Shown here in pieces: positions 27,136 to 58,558 of a DNA stretch of 64,000 bases; position 1 is the stretch's first letter, and every line of letters starts with the position of its first letter. Position numbers and translations under genes: made by a program. A model generated the notes under the pieces. The model did no database searches, was not told where the DNA came from, and saw nothing but the letters and a program-made list of their open reading frames with translations. Source of the stretch: Vicingus serpentipes (GTDB taxonomy: Bacteria > Bacteroidota > Bacteroidia > Flavobacteriales_E > Vicingaceae); the NCBI RefSeq assembly GCF_007993035.1, contig NZ_VOOS01000001.1, positions 682,001 through 746,000 on the forward strand, read 5' to 3'.

Positions 27136-27171
27136 AATTAAAAAAAAAGCATCCATTTAATGGATGCTTTT
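27136..27171 (-). terminator. Terminator of the tonB gene
   Basis: A 12-bp perfect stem (AAAAGCATCCAT with ATGGATGCTTTT; 27145-27156 and 27160-27171) with a 3-nt loop, followed on the minus strand by a T-run. It closes the maeB-to-tonB run. Confidence 0.88.
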
Positions 27172-49466: not shown

Positions 49467-50675
49467 TTAGGTATGAAGATGAACACTTTCATCATACATA
49501 GGATGATTTTTTGTCATTAAAGGAGCTTTAGCTAAAGACCTTAATGTAAACATCAAAAATAAACCTAAAAACATTAAAAACATACCTATTTCGATTGCGC
49601 CTAAAGCCCCATGATCATGCATTGTTCCTGGAAGTACCATTGTTAAAACATCTAACCAATGCGTAAAAAATATAATTAATGCTACAGGAACTAAGAATAC
49701 AACATTTCTCTTAGCATCTCTGGACATAAGCACAAAGAATGGTAAAATGAAATTAACAAAGAATGTTCCTAGGTATAACAATTTGTAATCATTAAATCTT
49801 TCTAAATAATATGTTACTTCTTCAGGAATATTAGAATACCAAATCAACATAAACTGAGAGAACCATAAATAAGACCACAAACAGCTAATTCCAAACATCC
49901 ATTTTCCTAAATCATGAATATGACTGTCATTAACTTCTTTTAAATATCCTTGTGATTTAAGATATAAAACTAACATTAAACCTACAATAATTGAAGATAC
50001 CCACATCCCAGAGAATGCATACCATCCAAACATTGTACTAAACCAGTGAACATCAATTGACATTAACCAATCCCAAGCAGATGATGACGATGTGTATGCA
50101 AAAAATGCGACAAATAAAACTCCCATAAAAATACTCTTCTTATATATTGGAGATGTTTCACCATCAGCAAGTGATAATTTATCCTCAGCTAAAGAATTTT
50201 TTCTAAACCAGTTAGCAAAAAACATCCAAACAGCAAAATAAGCTATTGTTCTACCCCAGAAGAATGCTTGATTTAAATAACCTGACTTACCAGCTATAAT
50301 AGCATCATAATGATGACTAGTTGGGTCTGTTATACCTTCAGCCATCCAATGGTAAATATGATTCCAGTGTAAACTACCTCCAATAAAGACTAAAAGTAAT
50401 GCTATAGCGGATACAGGCATAAAACTCATAGTTGCTTGAAATATTCGATGCGTAGTAACACCCCAAGCCATTTCAGATACATACTGTAAAGCTAAAAAGA
50501 ACAATGATGCTAAAGATATTGTGAAGAAAAAATAACCATTCACTAACAAGTTAGCCCATAATCTTTGCCCTGTATGACCATGACTAGTCAATAAACCAAT
50601 TAAAAAAGCAGCTAAACCTACTACTATTAATAGGATTGTTGTGATGTTAGCTTTTTTTGATATTTTATATTCCAT
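49467..50675 (-). CDS. actF: Alternative complex III subunit ActF
   Basis: This 402-residue integral membrane protein of the NrfD/PsrC-like fold has about ten membrane segments. Seen: FFWGRTIAYFAVWMFFANWF, WDWLMSIDVHWFSTMFGWY and CLWSYLWFSQFMLIWYSN, all characteristic of Bacteroidota ActF. It is a quinol-side membrane subunit of quinol:cytochrome c oxidoreductase. The frame is open to 50729 and overlaps actE there; ATG 50675 removes that overlap and is preferred. Last of the six act genes. Confidence 0.92.
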   Translation of the reverse strand: MEYKISKKANITTILLIVVGLAAFLIGLLTSHGHTGQRLWANLLVNGYFFFTISLASLFFLALQYVSEMAWGVTTHRIFQATMSFMPVSAIALLLVFIGGSLHWNHIYHWMAEGITDPTSHHYDAIIAGKSGYLNQAFFWGRTIAYFAVWMFFANWFRKNSLAEDKLSLADGETSPIYKKSIFMGVLFVAFFAYTSSSSAWDWLMSIDVHWFSTMFGWYAFSGMWVSSIIVGLMLVLYLKSQGYLKEVNDSHIHDLGKWMFGISCLWSYLWFSQFMLIWYSNIPEEVTYYLERFNDYKLLYLGTFFVNFILPFFVLMSRDAKRNVVFLVPVALIIFFTHWLDVLTMVLPGTMHDHGALGAIEIGMFLMFLGLFLMFTLRSLAKAPLMTKNHPMYDESVHLHT

Positions 50676-50700
50676 TTTATTAATGTTTTGTTTAATCAAA

Positions 50701-51342
50701 TTATTCTTGAATAGTTTCATCTGAAGCAACTACTTCTTCAATTACTTTATTTGGATTTTCCTTCATAAATTCAGTTCTGATATAATGAACCAATTTCCAT
50801 CTTTCTTCTTTATTCAATTGAGAAGCATGAGACCCCATTAAACCTTTTCCATAAGTAATTGTGTGAAACATCTTACCTTCAGATATAGCTAAACCTTCTT
50901 TAAATTTTACCGGAAGTGGAGGAAATTTTTCACGTTCTACTATAGTTCCATCACCTTGTCCAGTTTTTCCATGACAGTGTACACAAAACATTCCGTATAA
51001 CTCTTTTCCTTCTTTACCTATATTATCATCATACTGAATAGGATTTTTCAAATTAGCCCCAGCTAATTCATAACCTTCAGCATCATTTTTATATTCATAT
51101 GGACTAAATCCTCGAGGTATAGTACCTTCAACTGGTGTACGAGCTGACATTTTATTAGTTAACTCAACATTTGTTCTGTCTTTTAAATCACCATAATCAA
51201 CATATGGCTCAATAGAAGGAGAACGATACATGTCAGGCATATACTCTGGTGCTAAACCATCTTTCTCTTTACAAGAAAAAACTGATAATATAACAACTGC
51301 AAGAGTTAGTTTAGCTAAAATATTTTGATACTTTGTTTTCAT
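50701..51342 (-). CDS. actE: Alternative complex III monohaem cytochrome c ActE
   Basis: This 213-residue lipoprotein has a signal ending VFSC, followed by one cytochrome c domain with CVHCHGKTGQGDG and a candidate methionine ligand in GKGLMGSHASQL. It carries electrons out of the ActB/ActA chain. Three in-frame ATGs lie at 51351, 51348 and 51342; the last gives the cleanest lipoprotein signal. It is between actD and actF. Confidence 0.92.
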   Translation of the reverse strand: MKTKYQNILAKLTLAVVILSVFSCKEKDGLAPEYMPDMYRSPSIEPYVDYGDLKDRTNVELTNKMSARTPVEGTIPRGFSPYEYKNDAEGYELAGANLKNPIQYDDNIGKEGKELYGMFCVHCHGKTGQGDGTIVEREKFPPLPVKFKEGLAISEGKMFHTITYGKGLMGSHASQLNKEERWKLVHYIRTEFMKENPNKVIEEVVASDETIQE

Positions 51343-51358
51343 AAACATCATTCTATAA

Positions 51359-51889
51359 TTATGAATTTTTTACATCAACTTTTAAAACACAAGTTTCATT
51401 AATTAATGCTTTGATTTCTTCTTCACTAACATCGTTATCATGAGTGTGTATTTCCATTACAAACCAATCGTCAGTTGTTCTTAAATAAGGGTTTCTAGCT
51501 TTAAATCCAGGTAAAGTCCAGTTACGTAATAAATATGTAATTGACATACCATGAGCAGCACAAAGAACACCAAATTCAAAAGTAACAGGTATAAATGATG
51601 GCAAGTTTGTTAGAATACTAAAATTAGGTTTACCTCCAATATTCAAAGGCCAATCTTGAATCATAAAGAAATATAACCCTGATAAAGCCAAAGAAACACC
51701 AATCATACCATAGATAAAAGCAGCCATAGCTATTCTTGTTCTCTTTAATCCAATTACAGGATCAAGACCATGAATTGGAAAAGGTGAAAATACATCTCTA
51801 ATGTAAATACCTTTTGCAACAAGATGTTTTGCACTTTCTAAAAGTACGTAGTCATCATCGTAGATTGCGTATATTTTTTTACTTGACAT
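51359..51889 (-). CDS. actD: Alternative complex III subunit ActD (DUF3341)
   Basis: This 176-residue protein has two central membrane segments (about 60-80 and 100-125) with soluble ends. It contains YDDDYVLLESAKHLVAKGIY, FPIHGLDPVIGLKRTRI and GTRNPYLRT-like KARNPYLRTTDDWFVMEI, typical of DUF3341/ActD. It supports the quinol-oxidising membrane core. 35 nt after actC, 7 nt before actE. Confidence 0.93.
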   Translation of the reverse strand: MSSKKIYAIYDDDYVLLESAKHLVAKGIYIRDVFSPFPIHGLDPVIGLKRTRIAMAAFIYGMIGVSLALSGLYFFMIQDWPLNIGGKPNFSILTNLPSFIPVTFEFGVLCAAHGMSITYLLRNWTLPGFKARNPYLRTTDDWFVMEIHTHDNDVSEEEIKALINETCVLKVDVKNS

Positions 51890-51924: not shown

Positions 51925-53334
51925 TTACTTTTTTACAGGATGTAATTTATGAAATTCTTCATCCGACATGTTTTTGTATCTCTCACTTGAAGATTTCATT
52001 ATACTTTTTACCTCATTAAAAGCTAATACAGGGAAATACTTTAAAAACAATAAGTAAAATACTGAGAAGATTCCAATTGTACCAACATAAACACCTATAT
52101 CAACCCAAGTAGGATAAAACATAGACCAACTAGATGGTAAATAATCTCTGTGAACAGAAGTAACAATAATTACAAATCTTTCAAACCACATTCCAATATT
52201 TACAATTATTGACATAAAAAAAGTAAACCCTAAACTAGTTCTTAATTTTTTAGACCAAAATAAATGAGGTGAAACAACATTACAAGTCATCATTGCCCAG
52301 TAAGCCCATGCATATGGACCAGAGAAACGATTTATAAATGCGTACGACTCATATTCTACTCCAGAATAGTAAGACATAAATAACTCAGTTAAATAAGCAA
52401 CCCCTACAATAGAACCTGTAACAATAATTACAATATTCATGTATTCAATATGCTTAATAGTAACATAAGCTTCTAATCTCATTGCCTTTCTAACAATTAA
52501 CATTAACGTTTGTACCATTGCAAATCCTGAGAAAACAGCTCCAGCGACGAAGTAAGGAGGAAAAATTGTTGTATGCCATCCAGGAATTACAGAAGTAGCA
52601 AAATCCATTGATACTATTGAGTGAACTGAGAATACAAGAGGTGTTGCTAATCCTGCTAATACTAAAGATACTTCTTCAAAACGTTGCCATGCCTTTGCAT
52701 TACCTGTCCATCCGAAACTTAATAATGCATACATTAATTTAGGAACTGGTTTTTTAGCTCTATCTCTAATAGATGCAAAATCAGGTATTAATCCAATATA
52801 CCAGAAAACTAAAGAAACTGACATATAAGTACTAATAGCAAATACATCCCATAAAAGAGGTGAATTAAAGTTTACCCATAAAGAACCAAATTGATTTGGT
52901 AATGGTAACACCCAATAAGCCATCCAAATTCTTCCCATGTGAATCATAGGGAACATTCCTGCCATAAATACAGCAAAGATAGTCATCGCTTCAGCGGGAC
53001 GGTTAATAGCCATTCTCCACTTCTGACGGAAAAGTAATAACACTGCTGAAATTAAGGTTCCTGCGTGACCAATACCAACCCACCAAACAAAGTTAGTAAT
53101 ATCCCAAGCCCAACCAACAGTATTGTTTAGACCCCATGTTCCAATTCCAACACCTAATAAATATAATATTGATCCTATTCCCCATAAAGCAATAATTACT
53201 GCTATGGTCATCAATATTTTCCACATTTTAGTTGGAGAGTGTTCTATAGTATGTAAGACATCATTTGTTATCTTACTATACGTAACATCATTTCCTAAAA
53301 TTAATGGTTCTCTTATTGCTGCTTCTTTATGCAT
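51925..53334 (-). CDS. actC: Alternative complex III subunit ActC (NrfD family)
   Basis: This 469-residue NrfD/PsrC-type integral membrane protein has about ten membrane segments and is the likely quinol-binding subunit. Seen: WWVGIGHAGTLISAVLLLFR, EAMTIFAVFMAGMFPMIHMG and SFGWTGNAKAWQRFEEVSLV. Domain and gene order match ActC. It lies 26 nt after actB. Confidence 0.95.
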   Translation of the reverse strand: MHKEAAIREPLILGNDVTYSKITNDVLHTIEHSPTKMWKILMTIAVIIALWGIGSILYLLGVGIGTWGLNNTVGWAWDITNFVWWVGIGHAGTLISAVLLLFRQKWRMAINRPAEAMTIFAVFMAGMFPMIHMGRIWMAYWVLPLPNQFGSLWVNFNSPLLWDVFAISTYMSVSLVFWYIGLIPDFASIRDRAKKPVPKLMYALLSFGWTGNAKAWQRFEEVSLVLAGLATPLVFSVHSIVSMDFATSVIPGWHTTIFPPYFVAGAVFSGFAMVQTLMLIVRKAMRLEAYVTIKHIEYMNIVIIVTGSIVGVAYLTELFMSYYSGVEYESYAFINRFSGPYAWAYWAMMTCNVVSPHLFWSKKLRTSLGFTFFMSIIVNIGMWFERFVIIVTSVHRDYLPSSWSMFYPTWVDIGVYVGTIGIFSVFYLLFLKYFPVLAFNEVKSIMKSSSERYKNMSDEEFHKLHPVKK

Positions 53335-53360: not shown

Positions 53361-56300
53361 TTAAGCTTCGTTATTTTGTAAGTTTCTTACTTTAGTTTGA
53401 TAGTATATGTTTGGTTGTTGTCCAACCTCTTCAATTACTCTGTATGCTCTATCATGATTCATACCTTCAGCAACTTTACTTGAATTATCATTTAAATCTC
53501 CAAATGTTATTGCATTTGTAGGACAAGCTGAAGAACATGCAGTTTGAATAGATCCATCCACAACCTTAGCACCAGCTTTTTTCGCTTCTAACTTACCAGC
53601 TTGAATTTGTTGTACACATAAACTACATTTTTCCATTACTCCTCTAGATCTAACAACAACATCTGGATTAAGTACCATACGTCCTAAATCATCTTGAGAA
53701 GGATTAAAATCTGAAAATTTATTATACGCTTTATAATTGTACCAGTTAAATCTTCTTACTTTATAAGCACAGTTATTAGCACAGTATCTAGTACCTATAC
53801 AACGGTTATAAGCCATCATATTTAGACCTTCATTACTATGTGTGGTTGCTGCAACAGGACAAACTGTTTCACAACCTGCATGATTACAATGCTGACACAT
53901 CATTGGCTGATGAACAACGCTAGGGTTATCAGCTGCAAATTCCATAGCAGAATAAGCTCCAATACCACCTAAATCTTCAGCTGCTTTCGTTTTTTCATGA
54001 GTTTCACCTATCTTACCAACCTCTTGATGCTCACTAGAATAGTATCTATCTATTCTTAACCAGTGCATTATTCTACCTCTTCTTACTTCATCTTTTCCTA
54101 TAACTGCAACATTGTTTTCAGAAACACATGACGTAACACATGCACTACATCCAGTACAAGTGTTTAAGTCGATTGACATACCCCATCTGTGACCAATATT
54201 TTCAACTGGTTGTGCTCCCCATAAATCAATCTCTTTTATGTTCTTTTGAACGGCTTCACCTTTTTCATGAAACAATAAAGTATGAGCTGGATTATAATCT
54301 GATTTATTTCCTTTTTTGTATGTATCAAATGTAGTCTCTCTAATAATAGAGTCTCTACCCATTATTGTTTGTTGTGTTTGTGTAGCTGCAATATGATATT
54401 CCATATCAACATCAACAGTTGTTGCAACACCATAATAATTGAAACCTTGTTTAGTTAAAGCAACTAAAGGATAAGCATTTTTACCTGTAGGTTCTGCCAT
54501 ATTCCCAACAACCTTACCATAACCTAAAGCAACACCTATTGTTCCTTTAGCTTGACCTGGCTGAGCTACTACAGGGAGATTTTCAACAGTTTTACCATTT
54601 ACACTAATATTAACGACATTAATTAATTCTTCTTGGCCTAATTTAATGTTATATCCCTTTTCTTGCATTTCTGCAGGATTCATAGTTACATAATTATCCC
54701 AGGTAACTTTAGTTAATGGATCTGGCATTTCTTGTAACCAAGGGTTATCAGCCCCTGAGCCATCTCCAACACCAATATTTTGAGTTAATTCAATTTCTAA
54801 ATCTCCTCCTTTAATTGACTTAACTGCATTATATGCAGCAGCAACATCACCACTAAATGGAGCTAATTCTTTAGCTTCAACTGGAAATTCAACAACCCCA
54901 TCATGTAATACTTTATTCCAAAAGTCATTAAAGAATAATTGAGAAGATTGTTTATTAAAAACATTAGTCTCCCATCCTTTTCTTAAATAGTCATAATAAG
55001 AATCATTATTTCCATTCCATTTCAACAAACACTCTTCTGGTTGTCTTGTATCAAATAATGGAGAAATAGTAGGCTGACCTAATGAATAATACCCTTCAAC
55101 AGGATTCGCTTCAGACCATGATTCTAACTGATGATTACTTGCAGCAACATATTTACATGCAGCAGCAGTGTCATTCATTTTTGTAGTAAAACAAACAGTA
55201 GTTTTTACTTTTGCTAACGCAGCCTTAAATTCTTGACCAAGAGTAAATACTGGATCAATACCATTTATAAATAAAGCATCAACCTCTCCAGCATTCATTT
55301 CTTTCATTAAAGCTAGCAAAGCTTTATCATCACCCTGCTTAGTATTAGAATGTCTGTTTAAATCAATTGTTTTACCATAATTCTCTAATAAAGAATTAAT
55401 AGCATTTACAATAACTTGAACATTTTTATCATTTGAACCACAAACGACAATTGATTCTCCTTTTGTAGATTTTAAATCTTTTACTATAGCATTAACAAAT
55501 GCATCGTATTTTGCATTAGAAGCATTTAAGCTCCCTCCTAATTTACTATAAATTTGAGCTAAAATAGCTCCATATTCAGAAGGTTTAACAGGAATCCTAA
55601 CATCTGCATTAGTTCCTGACAATGACATGTTTGCCTCTATCTGATAATGCTTAGACATCCAATCATTATCTGGCTTTCGAGTTTGAGCATAATCATTAAC
55701 ATACATTAACGCATCTAACCAGTTACCCATAAAATCAGCACCAACAGAAACTATTGTTTTAGCTTTTGCAAAATTATATGTTGGTATTGCCATCTTACCA
55801 AATGACTCTTGGTTTGCATTTAAAATACCTGAGTAAGAAATAGGGTTATACTGAACCAATACTTCATTTTTAGTAGCTTGATCAATTTCTTCTCCCTCAA
55901 CTTTTACTAAACCATTTATAATTTGTTTAGCTGTTCCACTAATTATCGTATTTGATAAAAACTTAATGTTTTTAGCTCCTGCTAAATCTTTAGTAATAGC
56001 TTTATCTAGAGAAGCCCAATCTGATTCACTTCCATTCATCATAGGTTTTTTTAACCTATTATTATCATATAACGATAATACCGAAGAATTTATTCTAGCA
56101 TTAACAGCACCTTTAGTTAAAGATGATGATTTATTTCCACTAATAAATATTGGACGACCTTCTCTCGTTTTAACCAAGATAGGAGCATAATCATTACCAT
56201 CAAAATAAGTAGATGCATAATAATTAGCAACACCTGGTGTAATTTCTTCAGGTTTATTTAAGTAAGGTATAGCTTTAGTTACCGGCGTTTCACAAGCAGC

Positions 56301-56501
56301 CAATGAAGCAGCAGCAACACCAAATCCTAAAAACTTTAAAAAATCTCTTCTAGTAGTAGAAGTGTTTTCTAAAGATTCTTTATCACCTAAAAACTCATCT
56401 ACAGGCAAGTGCTCAGGAAATTCATTTTTAGTAGACGCTAAAAAGTTAGGGTCTTCATTTAATTGTTCTAATCCTTTCCAGTATTTCTTTGTATTAGCCA
56501 T
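53361..56501 (-). CDS. actB: Alternative complex III iron-sulfur subunit ActB
   Basis: This 1046-residue fusion joins a molybdopterin-oxidoreductase-like domain (N-terminal, without known Mo cofactor in ActB) to a C-terminal ferredoxin-type domain. The N-terminus has a twin-arginine-like signal RRDFLKFLGFGVAAAS followed by the lipobox-like cysteine LAAC, suggesting Tat export and lipid anchoring. Cluster motifs are CTGCSACVTSC, CQHCNHAGCETVCP, CIGTRYCANNC, CSLCVQQI and CSSACP, enough for four Fe-S clusters. It passes electrons from quinol to the haems of ActA and ActE. It lies 31 nt after actA. Confidence 0.95.
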   Translation of the reverse strand: MANTKKYWKGLEQLNEDPNFLASTKNEFPEHLPVDEFLGDKESLENTSTTRRDFLKFLGFGVAAASLAACETPVTKAIPYLNKPEEITPGVANYYASTYFDGNDYAPILVKTREGRPIFISGNKSSSLTKGAVNARINSSVLSLYDNNRLKKPMMNGSESDWASLDKAITKDLAGAKNIKFLSNTIISGTAKQIINGLVKVEGEEIDQATKNEVLVQYNPISYSGILNANQESFGKMAIPTYNFAKAKTIVSVGADFMGNWLDALMYVNDYAQTRKPDNDWMSKHYQIEANMSLSGTNADVRIPVKPSEYGAILAQIYSKLGGSLNASNAKYDAFVNAIVKDLKSTKGESIVVCGSNDKNVQVIVNAINSLLENYGKTIDLNRHSNTKQGDDKALLALMKEMNAGEVDALFINGIDPVFTLGQEFKAALAKVKTTVCFTTKMNDTAAACKYVAASNHQLESWSEANPVEGYYSLGQPTISPLFDTRQPEECLLKWNGNNDSYYDYLRKGWETNVFNKQSSQLFFNDFWNKVLHDGVVEFPVEAKELAPFSGDVAAAYNAVKSIKGGDLEIELTQNIGVGDGSGADNPWLQEMPDPLTKVTWDNYVTMNPAEMQEKGYNIKLGQEELINVVNISVNGKTVENLPVVAQPGQAKGTIGVALGYGKVVGNMAEPTGKNAYPLVALTKQGFNYYGVATTVDVDMEYHIAATQTQQTIMGRDSIIRETTFDTYKKGNKSDYNPAHTLLFHEKGEAVQKNIKEIDLWGAQPVENIGHRWGMSIDLNTCTGCSACVTSCVSENNVAVIGKDEVRRGRIMHWLRIDRYYSSEHQEVGKIGETHEKTKAAEDLGGIGAYSAMEFAADNPSVVHQPMMCQHCNHAGCETVCPVAATTHSNEGLNMMAYNRCIGTRYCANNCAYKVRRFNWYNYKAYNKFSDFNPSQDDLGRMVLNPDVVVRSRGVMEKCSLCVQQIQAGKLEAKKAGAKVVDGSIQTACSSACPTNAITFGDLNDNSSKVAEGMNHDRAYRVIEEVGQQPNIYYQTKVRNLQNNEA

Positions 56502-56532: not shown

Positions 56533-57906
56533 TTAATAATGACATTTAGCACATTCCCAACCACCTATCTCTTCAACTGTAAGTTTATCATCTCCTAGCC
56601 ATTTATCTTTATATTCTTCTGTCATTCTAGAATGCATTTCATCGTAATAACCATTTCCTTTAGTTGCAACTCCAGTTTCACCATGACATTCAATACACCA
56701 TTTCATAGTCAATGGAGAAGATTGTTCAACAACATCCATTTCTTCAACTGGTCCGTGACATGTTTGACATTTTTGATTACCAACAGTAACGTGTTGTTGA
56801 TGACTAAAGAAAACGTGGTCTGGTAAATTATGAACTTTAATCCATTTCACAGGAGTAGGATTATCTCCATAAGTTTGAGTTTCTGTATCATAGTCAAGTG
56901 CTTTATAAATTTTCTTAATCTCTTCTTCCATAGAATACTCTTCACCATTATAAGAAAAGGTTTTCCCATGAGAGCCATCAATATACTTATGACAGTTCAT
57001 ACATACATTTAATGAAGGAATACCTGAAGTTTTACTATGGCGTGCACTTGAGTGGCAGTAGTTACAATCTATTTTATCATCACCTGCATGAATTTTGTGA
57101 GAAAATTTAATTGGCTGCTCTGGCTTATACCCAGTATGAACTCCTATTGTAAATGCACCATCCATTAATTTAACTAAACTAGTAAAAAACAAGACAATAA
57201 CAATTGCAGCAACTAAACCTTTATTATTTCTTAAAGTAAATCTAAACGCTTCCATTAACGATACTGGACCATCAAAAGAAACACCTTCTTTCTCTGCAGC
57301 TAATCTTGCAATAGACACTCTTGATTTATTTAAGATTACTAATAAAACCAATAAAATTAATGCGACAGACCCAAAAACTATTAACGAAACACTTGAATCC
57401 TCTTCTACAACAACCTCTTCAGTAGAAACATCAGCAACTACATCTTGTTTGACTGGAGGAGTTTTAATGTATGCTAATATTGCATCAATATCATCTTCAC
57501 TCACTGGCTGAGGAGGCATCGGAACCTTGTTGTATTCTTCAAAAATTGCATTTGCATCAGCATCACCCGAAGCAATTAAATCTGCAGAATTAATAATCCA
57601 TTTACCTAACCACTCTCTTTCTCTCCTATCACTTATACCTTTTAAACCAGGACCAACAACTTTGTTATCACCTATACTGTGACAAGCAGCACAATTCGCC
57701 TTAAAAAGCTTTTCCCCCTTCATTACAAGATCTTCACCATCAACAGTAGCTACATCTTCAGCTGAAGCTGAAGCCTCTAAACTTACATTATTAGAATCTG
57801 ATTCTTCTTGAGCGAAAGAAAATGAATTAGTAAAAAGAACTAATAGGCAAAGAAATGCAACTCTATGAAATACGTTTCTTTTTACTTTTTTTGTTATCTT
57901 ATTCAT
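56533..57906 (-). CDS. actA: Alternative complex III multihaem cytochrome ActA with N-terminal cytochrome c domain
   Basis: This 457-residue protein has a signal peptide (to about residue 33), a monohaem cytochrome c domain with CAACH near residue 72, one membrane segment about 175-195 and another about 230-247, then a multihaem domain with five CxxCH motifs: CNYCH, CMNCH, CQTCH, CIECH and CAKCH. Total six haem motifs. ActA is the electron-transfer cytochrome of alternative complex III. First gene of the act-oxidase run; a TAAATTTG promoter element lies 48 nt upstream. Confidence 0.94.
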   Translation of the reverse strand: MNKITKKVKRNVFHRVAFLCLLVLFTNSFSFAQEESDSNNVSLEASASAEDVATVDGEDLVMKGEKLFKANCAACHSIGDNKVVGPGLKGISDRREREWLGKWIINSADLIASGDADANAIFEEYNKVPMPPQPVSEDDIDAILAYIKTPPVKQDVVADVSTEEVVVEEDSSVSLIVFGSVALILLVLLVILNKSRVSIARLAAEKEGVSFDGPVSLMEAFRFTLRNNKGLVAAIVIVLFFTSLVKLMDGAFTIGVHTGYKPEQPIKFSHKIHAGDDKIDCNYCHSSARHSKTSGIPSLNVCMNCHKYIDGSHGKTFSYNGEEYSMEEEIKKIYKALDYDTETQTYGDNPTPVKWIKVHNLPDHVFFSHQQHVTVGNQKCQTCHGPVEEMDVVEQSSPLTMKWCIECHGETGVATKGNGYYDEMHSRMTEEYKDKWLGDDKLTVEEIGGWECAKCHY

Positions 57907-57954: not shown

Positions 57955-57962
57955 CAAATTTA
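57955..57962 (-). promoter_or_regulatory. Putative -7 element of the act operon
   Basis: On the minus strand TAAATTTG is a perfect -7 match 48 nt before the actA ATG. A good -33 element is not seen, so activator dependence is possible. Confidence 0.5.
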
Positions 57963-58017: not shown

Positions 58018-58036
58018 ATTTAGAATTATTCTAAAT
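58018..58036. promoter_or_regulatory. Perfect 9-1-9 inverted repeat, Fur/PerR-like operator candidate
   Basis: ATTTAGAAT-T-ATTCTAAAT is a perfect 19-bp inverted repeat with a one-base centre. Its core TTAGAATTATTCTAA matches the PerR box consensus TTATAATnATTATAA at all but the two symmetric positions. It sits between the divergent act and SPOR promoters, 56 nt from the first and 48 nt from the second. Confidence 0.5.
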
Positions 58037-58083: not shown

Positions 58084-58110
58084 TTGTGATAAAAACAAAA
58101 TGTACTTTTG
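58084..58110 (+). promoter_or_regulatory. Promoter of the SPOR protein gene
   Basis: TTG at 58084-58086, a 16-nt spacer and TACTTTTG at 58103-58110 fit the Bacteroidota consensus, 22 nt before the ATG. Confidence 0.6.
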
Positions 58111-58132: not shown

Positions 58133-58558
58133 ATGCTTAAAAAATACACAATAGCATCCTTATTAATTCTTATTTGCTTTTGCTTAAAAAGCCAAACCAT
58201 AGATGCAATTTCAGATTCAACAAATCATTCTACAAATAAGATTCATGTGAAAAAAGACATTAGAATAGATGCTATTATTGAAACACACAAGAAATCATAT
58301 AGAGAAGATGGCTATCGAATTCAAATTTTTTCGGGAAATAAAAAACAACCTGCTAGAGAAGCAAAAGCTAAATACATAAGTTTAAGACACAAAAATAAAG
58401 CACACGAAATATACCAACAACCTTATTTCAAAGTTAGAGTTGGTGATTTTAGAACAAAAATAGAGGCTCTGAAGTTTCAAAAAGAAATTGCTACACATTT
58501 CCCTAACTGCTTTATTGTAAAAGATGAAATTGATATTGAAGAATTATTAGAAAATTAA
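58133..58558 (+). CDS. SPOR domain protein
   Basis: This 141-residue protein has a signal peptide (about 1-20, LLILICFCLKSQ) and a C-terminal SPOR-type domain (about 58-135) with GYRIQIFSGNKKQPAREAKA, YFKVRVGDFRTKIEALKFQK and FIVKDEI. SPOR domains bind denuded glycan strands at division sites; a single-domain secreted form like this is common in Bacteroidota. It is a lone + strand gene between the divergent act operon and a convergent run, with its own promoter and a shared bidirectional terminator. Confidence 0.88.
   Translation: MLKKYTIASLLILICFCLKSQTIDAISDSTNHSTNKIHVKKDIRIDAIIETHKKSYREDGYRIQIFSGNKKQPAREAKAKYISLRHKNKAHEIYQQPYFKVRVGDFRTKIEALKFQKEIATHFPNCFIVKDEIDIEELLEN

Follow-up and report, generated by a model that had tools for sequence, protein, structure and literature searches.

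The divergent region upstream of actA in Vicingus serpentipes carries a perfect inverted repeat close to an operon for the respiratory enzyme alternative complex III, which raises the question of which regulator reads this site and whether it turns the operon off or on. The window is the whole stretch of DNA that was analysed, 64,000 nucleotides long, and the features needed to follow the argument are these:

58018..58036, no strand: predicted Fur box, perfect 9-1-9 palindrome ATTTAGAATTATTCTAAAT (from the sequence, identity with the Riemerella anatipestifer box and conservation upstream of actA)
57955..57962, minus strand: TAAATTTG, predicted -7 element for actA; the box starts 74 bp away
56533..57906, minus strand: actA, multihaem and mono-haem cytochrome c subunit of alternative complex III (ORF, Pfam cytochrome families)
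53361..56501, minus strand: actB, Fe-S/molybdopterin-like subunit, next gene of the operon (ORF; name assigned from sequence)
51925..53334, minus strand: actC, membrane quinol-oxidising subunit, NrfD-like (ORF; name assigned from sequence)
51359..51889, minus strand: actD, small membrane subunit (ORF; name assigned from sequence)
50701..51351, minus strand: actE, mono-haem cytochrome c lipoprotein subunit (ORF; name assigned from sequence)
49467..50729, minus strand: actF, membrane subunit (ORF from TTG, true start uncertain; name assigned from sequence)
58133..58558, plus strand: divergent SPOR-domain gene (Pfam SPOR)
58103..58110, plus strand: TACTTTTG, predicted -7 element for the SPOR gene; the box starts 85 bp away

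The name ActA for the product of 56533..57906 comes from the original prediction, and we adopt it on that footing; actA is the first gene of the operon and the likely target of the box. All -7 elements were called with TAnnTTTG, which we take to be the -7 consensus of Bacteroidota promoters, and promoters of the -7/-33 kind are named in a study of R. anatipestifer (PMC5609570). In relatives (L017-L019 and L021-L026) the ActA frame runs to about 545-554 codons with seven CxxCH motifs, compared with 457 amino acids and six CxxCH motifs in the window, and the longer form apparently has an extra mono-haem domain at its start.

ATTTAGAATTATTCTAAAT occupies 58018-58036 and, just as the original prediction had described, forms a perfect inverted repeat of the 9-1-9 kind; actA (56533-57906, minus strand) lies on one side of it and the SPOR gene (58133-58558, plus strand) on the other. 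The original prediction was also right about the 7-1-7 core, TTAGAAT-T-ATTCTAA: taking the consensus TTATAATNATTATAA as our standard for a PerR box, we found mismatches at two symmetric positions only. Bare palindromicity is nevertheless poor evidence for function, with three perfect 9-1-9 palindromes in the window (at 27149, 35378 and 58018) against 0.6 expected from shuffles, and at least one in 18 of 40 shuffled windows. The palindrome at 27149-27167, GCATCCATTTAATGGATGC, is followed by a T run, lies between two minus-strand genes and looks like an ordinary terminator. Loose searches of the home genome gave no enrichment of the 15-mer core (70 places with up to two mismatches, 62 for the reversed pattern), and for ATTTAGA-N5-TCTAAAT, again with up to two mismatches, the count ran contrary to enrichment (89 versus 186 for the control). 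The signal of the box emerges only under high stringency or with conservation.

We use "family" for the bacterial family of the home genome, Vicingaceae, and the family-wide counts cover 41 genomes. Allowing one mismatch at most, ATTTAGANTNANTCTAAAT occurred 267 times in these genomes, compared with 23 times for the reversed control. A box with at least 16 of the 18 consensus letters was present upstream of actA in all 29 family act loci having an upstream region (L016-L030 and L032-L045; L031, which is cut, was left out). Among six further family act loci, L236, L238 and L239 had the box, L241 had a weak one (14/18), and L237 and L240, both of one genus, had none upstream of actA. In other families of the class, represented by 23 genomes, an act box with at least 15 of 18 letters was found in 18 and was absent from five (L214, L220, L229, L234 and L231, whose upstream sequence is just 95 bp long). 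Conservation in related act loci, the absence of which the original prediction had listed among the outcomes that would refute it, is real. Counted between the first bases of the box and of TAnnTTTG, the spacing in the 29 family act promoters was 74 bp in four, 75 bp in 18 and 76 bp in seven. A chance palindrome in AT-rich DNA, a reading that the three palindromes in the window and the unenriched loose matches would accommodate, is refuted by this conservation at fixed spacing before act and by the excess over the control, and its probability is practically nil.

The divergent region is shared, and the SPOR gene has its own -7 element in the window at 85 bp, likewise in phase, so the box could be thought to serve that gene rather than act. 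The distances from the box to TAnnTTTG motifs on the SPOR side, however, scatter from 21 to 144 bp, with no -7 element in five of the 29 loci, whereas the act side stays at 74-76 bp; moreover, L030 has a different neighbour gene yet keeps the box. With a spacing that varies in this way, the SPOR gene is an improbable target, and a box dedicated to it seems hardly credible.

Seven exact ATTTAGA-N5-TCTAAAT sites were found in the home genome, standing at actA, nfu, sdhC, sufA-sufB, feoA, a DUF4856 gene and a gene for a LuxR-type response regulator (families were checked by Pfam, with FeoB and SufB read from the sequence only). Most of them adjoin genes for iron, Fe-S or haem proteins, and none stands at katA, ahpC or dps. 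The original prediction had proposed a search for further copies upstream of both kinds of gene: those at feo, suf, nfu and sdh bear out the iron side, and katA, ahpC and dps have no exact copy. On its other side the DUF4856-gene site faces a fatty acid hydroxylase gene; two Fur boxes flank this small cluster of LuxR-type response regulator, fatty acid hydroxylase and DUF4856 genes (L050/L051, G000:C2:331651 and 333321), and those before the LuxR-type regulator and the DUF4856 gene lie 14-15 bp past the -7 element, in a repressor place. A sequence two mismatches from the box, AATTAGAATGATTATAAAT, lies just 5' of the start codon of the methionine sulfoxide reductase B gene, msrB (L003, G000:C1:571877). 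Autoregulation was considered and dropped: in the home genome fur, dtxR and the PerR-like gene all lack an upstream box, the best match being 12-13 of 18 letters.

The sites at suf, nfu and sdh led us to consider IscR-type (Rrf2) regulators, and together with feo these targets would suit a DtxR-family or an Rrf2 iron or Fe-S regulator equally; the home genome has one DtxR gene. On the other hand, it has no Rrf2 (PF02082) match, and DtxR is missing from five of the 41 family genomes, two of which, G003 (10 boxes) and G025 (9 boxes), have a completeness of at least 96%. An assignment to either regulator is therefore largely refuted, and we regard it as extremely unlikely. In the home genome a ZIP-type metal transporter gene comes after the DtxR gene, which has a divergent TonB-dependent receptor gene on its other side (L063, G000:C1:536659); between DtxR and receptor genes lies TTTAGA-CAAC-TCTAAA, which resembles a Fur box except for its 4-bp spacer.

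A PerR box responding to peroxide would agree with the nearness of the core to the PerR consensus and with the presence, in the home genome, of a PerR-like gene beside ahpC and sodB. Against this, boxes are kept in the 15 of 41 family genomes that encode just one Fur-family protein, the targets are iron genes, with no exact site at katA, ahpC or dps, and the best match upstream of the PerR-like gene reaches only 12 of 18 letters. We consider a peroxide-responsive PerR box very unlikely, and of the two signals that the original prediction had allowed a Fur-family regulator, iron or peroxide, the second finds no support. In L047 (G000:C2:261964) the PerR-like gene is followed by ahpC and then by a superoxide dismutase gene (sodB), with no Fur box upstream; these genes are likely an oxidative-stress operon.

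The iron sensor Fur fits better. The published Fur box of R. anatipestifer, accompanied by EMSA on four promoters of that species, is ATTTAGAATTATTCTAAAT (PMC5609570), identical with the window site in 19 of 19 letters; among open-licence PMC texts, the string was found only in that paper. This identity, the copies at feo, suf, nfu and sdh and the conservation before act uphold the iron half of the original prediction, and 58018-58036 is very probably a binding site for Fur, as predicted from sequence. The homologues it had anticipated are also present: a Fur-type protein is encoded in 41 of 41 family genomes, the only candidate regulator present in all, and the home genome has the PerR-like gene as well. 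The fur gene adjoins purA in 40 of the 41 (the exception is L190; the home locus is G000:C3:67651), and this purA-type Fur is the sole Fur-family protein in the 15 genomes already mentioned. The home Fur aligns with solved Fur structures. At the position of the recognition helix that is Arg (Y-R-T) in the Fur of PDB 4raz, the home Fur has Asn (Y-N-T), and Asn was read there in every one of the 41 family Fur proteins (a single pattern covered 35, and the other six were read separately). Such an Asn is called canonical for PerR in PMC8638851, which also cites a paper whose title states that an Asn-to-Arg change makes PerR recognise the Fur box in place of the PerR box. The PerR-like look of the box may thus plausibly be due to a Fur that has the PerR-type reading residue.

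The place of the box relative to the -7 element differs among its targets. In the home genome the spacings were 74 bp at act, 63 at sdhC, 34 at nfu, -15 at the DUF4856 gene, -14 at the LuxR-type regulator gene, -13 at sufA and -14 at feoA. At sufA, the spacing was -13 or -15 in 22 of 30 family loci and 27-32 in seven, with no -7 element in one. Such places put the box over the transcription start or over the -33 region, as suits repression. At act in other families, where loci were picked regardless of spacing, we found 63-64 bp in seven, 74-76 bp in eight, 61 bp in one and 115 bp in one, and no -7 element in one more locus with a box. Fifteen of the 16 with a -7 element at 50-90 bp fell within 62-66 or 73-77 bp (P = 8e-9, assuming uniform and independent spacings). 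The two act spacings differ by about 11 bp, one helical turn, and families use one or the other. The phased layout also appears at sdhC: a box of at least 15 letters was present in 13 of 30 family loci, with a spacing of 63-64 bp in 11, 60 in one and 75 in one, and the remaining 17 had none or a weaker one. Among 30 family nqrA loci picked regardless of spacing, a clear box was found in two (63 and 74 bp) and a weak one in another (65 bp); the home-genome nqrA has none, and with a clear box in only two of 30 loci nqrA was rejected as a general target in the family.

A scan of named genomes for ATTTAGANTNANTCTAAAT-N43-58-TANNTTTG, which admits spacings of 62-77 bp only, gave at least 118 stretches, and all those listed were analysed. 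Nearly all are titled Bacteroidota; titles from outside the phylum among the matches listed include an Acidobacteria, a Rickettsiales, a Chlorobiota and a Rhodothermaeota bin. The 122 box/-7 pairs among the matches listed comprised 52 at 62-66 bp, one at 67, none at 68, eight at 69-72 and 61 at 73-77, the counts peaking at 64-65 and 74-75. In the same listed loci, each of five scrambled control motifs yielded three to eight pairs over the whole range, which, since the loci were chosen for the true motif, shows only the specificity of the peaks. One representative of each cluster of downstream proteins was domain-scanned, actA excepted, with CcmE and CoxB under curated cut-offs. The clusters among the matches listed were actA (31), nqrA (27), hemA (9), ferredoxin (4), CcmE-like (3), sdhC (2) and NuoE-like (2), along with single NuoB, CoxB-like and Rex proteins; the remaining downstream proteins were mostly singletons and held most of the off-phase pairs. 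The paired loci among the matches listed mostly precede respiratory, haem and Fe-S genes. Some Saprospiraceae NqrA proteins (L280, L312, L324, L344 and others of L273-L390) begin with roughly 100 extra residues ahead of the NqrA domain, which in L324 spans residues 123-568.

The strength of these promoters was judged by a -33 element, scored as TTG with a spacer of 17-21 bp before the -7 element. This TTG was found in only one of the 29 family act promoters and was missing from 28, and the act promoter of the window also lacks it, whereas ten of the 11 sdh promoters with a box at 63-64 bp had it. The act promoter thus looks activator-dependent and the sdh promoter does not. At suf, the TTG was present in 20 of 22 promoters with the box past the -7 element and in none of seven with the box at 27-32 bp; among the matches listed in the scan, it was present in 5 of 57 of the 73-76 bp set and 11 of 45 of the 63-65 bp set. 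Judged as class-I-type promoters, both act and sdh have the upstream, helix-phased site, and act, unlike sdh, has the weak core promoter as well.

The fixed helix position of the box in many Bacteroidota suggests that Fur with iron turns iron-rich respiratory enzymes on and iron uptake off. From the site, its conservation, the gene set, the phasing, the missing -33 and the presence of Fur, all of which are read in the sequences themselves, we infer binding by the purA-linked Fur, activation and contact with RNA polymerase. With plentiful iron, iron-loaded Fur, encoded beside purA, would bind the box, the Bacteroidota form of the Fur operator. At feoAB, sufA and similar genes, where the box lies over the transcription start, Fur would block transcription; at act and sdh the box would stand upstream of RNA polymerase in one of two positions a helical turn apart (near -76 or -65 for the middle of the box, with the middle of the -7 element set at -7), and at act Fur may help RNA polymerase start on a promoter without a -33 element, as an activator of the class I type. 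One protein could in this way lower iron uptake and Fe-S assembly and raise the iron-rich respiratory chain, with a RyhB-like small RNA unneeded. We put the probability of this whole explanation, in which Fur has the box as its operator, represses uptake and Fe-S genes and directly activates iron-using respiration, at about 0.72. The -33 TTG kept by sdh promoters, the sdhC loci with no box or a weaker one, the scarcity of clear boxes at nqrA and the act loci without a box tell against it. The phased layout, the likely activator role and the standing of the SPOR gene as a probable non-target were not anticipated in the original prediction.

Published expression data, as far as the passages concerned go, run in the same direction. 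In iron-rich cells of Elizabethkingia anophelis, expression of a quinol:cytochrome c oxidoreductase cluster was raised 4.1-8.6-fold, and one of the genes most strongly induced by iron was for succinate dehydrogenase (PMC7221216); we read the cluster as alternative complex III by its listed parts, although that paper says bc1. In R. anatipestifer, some cytochrome genes drop in low iron (PMC5429918) and feoAB is under Fur control (PMC10434265), and a review lists activation by upstream binding of Fur (PMC3788343). Conversely, deleting fur in R. anatipestifer does not abolish the drop of sdhCAB and of a cytochrome c oxidoreductase subunit under iron restriction, which is larger than in the wild type (PMC5609570, Table 2). 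Fur can therefore not be the only cause in that species; the fur-independent drop could come from a second iron response or from a missing box. The same result lends some weight to a reading in which the site is a Fur box, but Fur only represses or weakly modulates act, with the low-iron fall of respiratory genes due to another iron-responsive factor, or with another protein activating from the box. A repressor, though, has no evident need to keep to two phases of the helix, 63-64 and 74-76 bp before the -7 element, where the -33 element is missing, the same box takes an ordinary repressor place at suf and feo, and the published direction of expression is up with iron. We therefore consider this reading unlikely.

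Direct activation by Fur may be one side of a wider positional code, to which we give somewhat better than even odds: throughout the phylum, a box past the -7 element would mark iron-repressed genes (uptake and Fe-S assembly), and a box 63-65 or 74-76 bp upstream would mark iron-activated ones (alternative complex III, Na+-NQR, complex I, SDH, haem synthesis and cytochrome maturation), with genes gaining and losing boxes and those boxes that are present standing in phase.

Several known systems resemble parts of this arrangement. The R. anatipestifer Fur box is identical over 19 bp (PMC5609570) and its iron-uptake targets include feoAB (PMC10434265), but there it is described as acting negatively, no more than 100 bp from the start codons of genes under Fur control, and the passages on the box mention no alternative complex III site or phased upstream layout (PMC5609570). 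In Caulobacter crescentus, iron-loaded Fur binds and directly activates nuo, sdh and acnA without a small RNA (PMC6120978); phylum and promoters differ, and here alternative complex III, Na+-NQR, hemA and two helical phases are involved. Iron sparing by small RNAs of the RyhB type, as treated in the review PMC3788343, likewise leaves fewer iron-rich enzymes under low iron, whereas here it is proposed to occur at the promoter, by Fur itself. The Bacillus subtilis PerR box shares the 7-1-7 palindrome, the AATnATT core and the recognition-helix Asn, but differs in two symmetric bases, and here the likely binder is Fur and the targets are iron genes. Class I activation by CRP in Escherichia coli similarly uses sites upstream of RNA polymerase one helical turn apart; here the protein would be Fur, the promoter is of the Bacteroidota -7/-33 type and contact with the alpha subunit is only putative.

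As far as the open-licence PMC texts were searched, they contain no report of Fur control of alternative complex III; within that scope the Fur box itself is already known, and what is new is the site at alternative complex III together with the phased layout that respiratory and haem genes show across the phylum. Iron homeostasis in Bacteroidota is called largely unknown in PMC9478572. The present reading offers a mechanism for the rise of respiratory genes in iron-rich Elizabethkingia and gives a clean test case for Fur as a phased activator. If true, it would link a regulator that is already known with the phylum's main respiratory complexes through a rule readable from sequence, would make Fur regulons predictable from raw genomes, and would place a direct iron-sparing response within the respiratory-chain promoters of a whole phylum.
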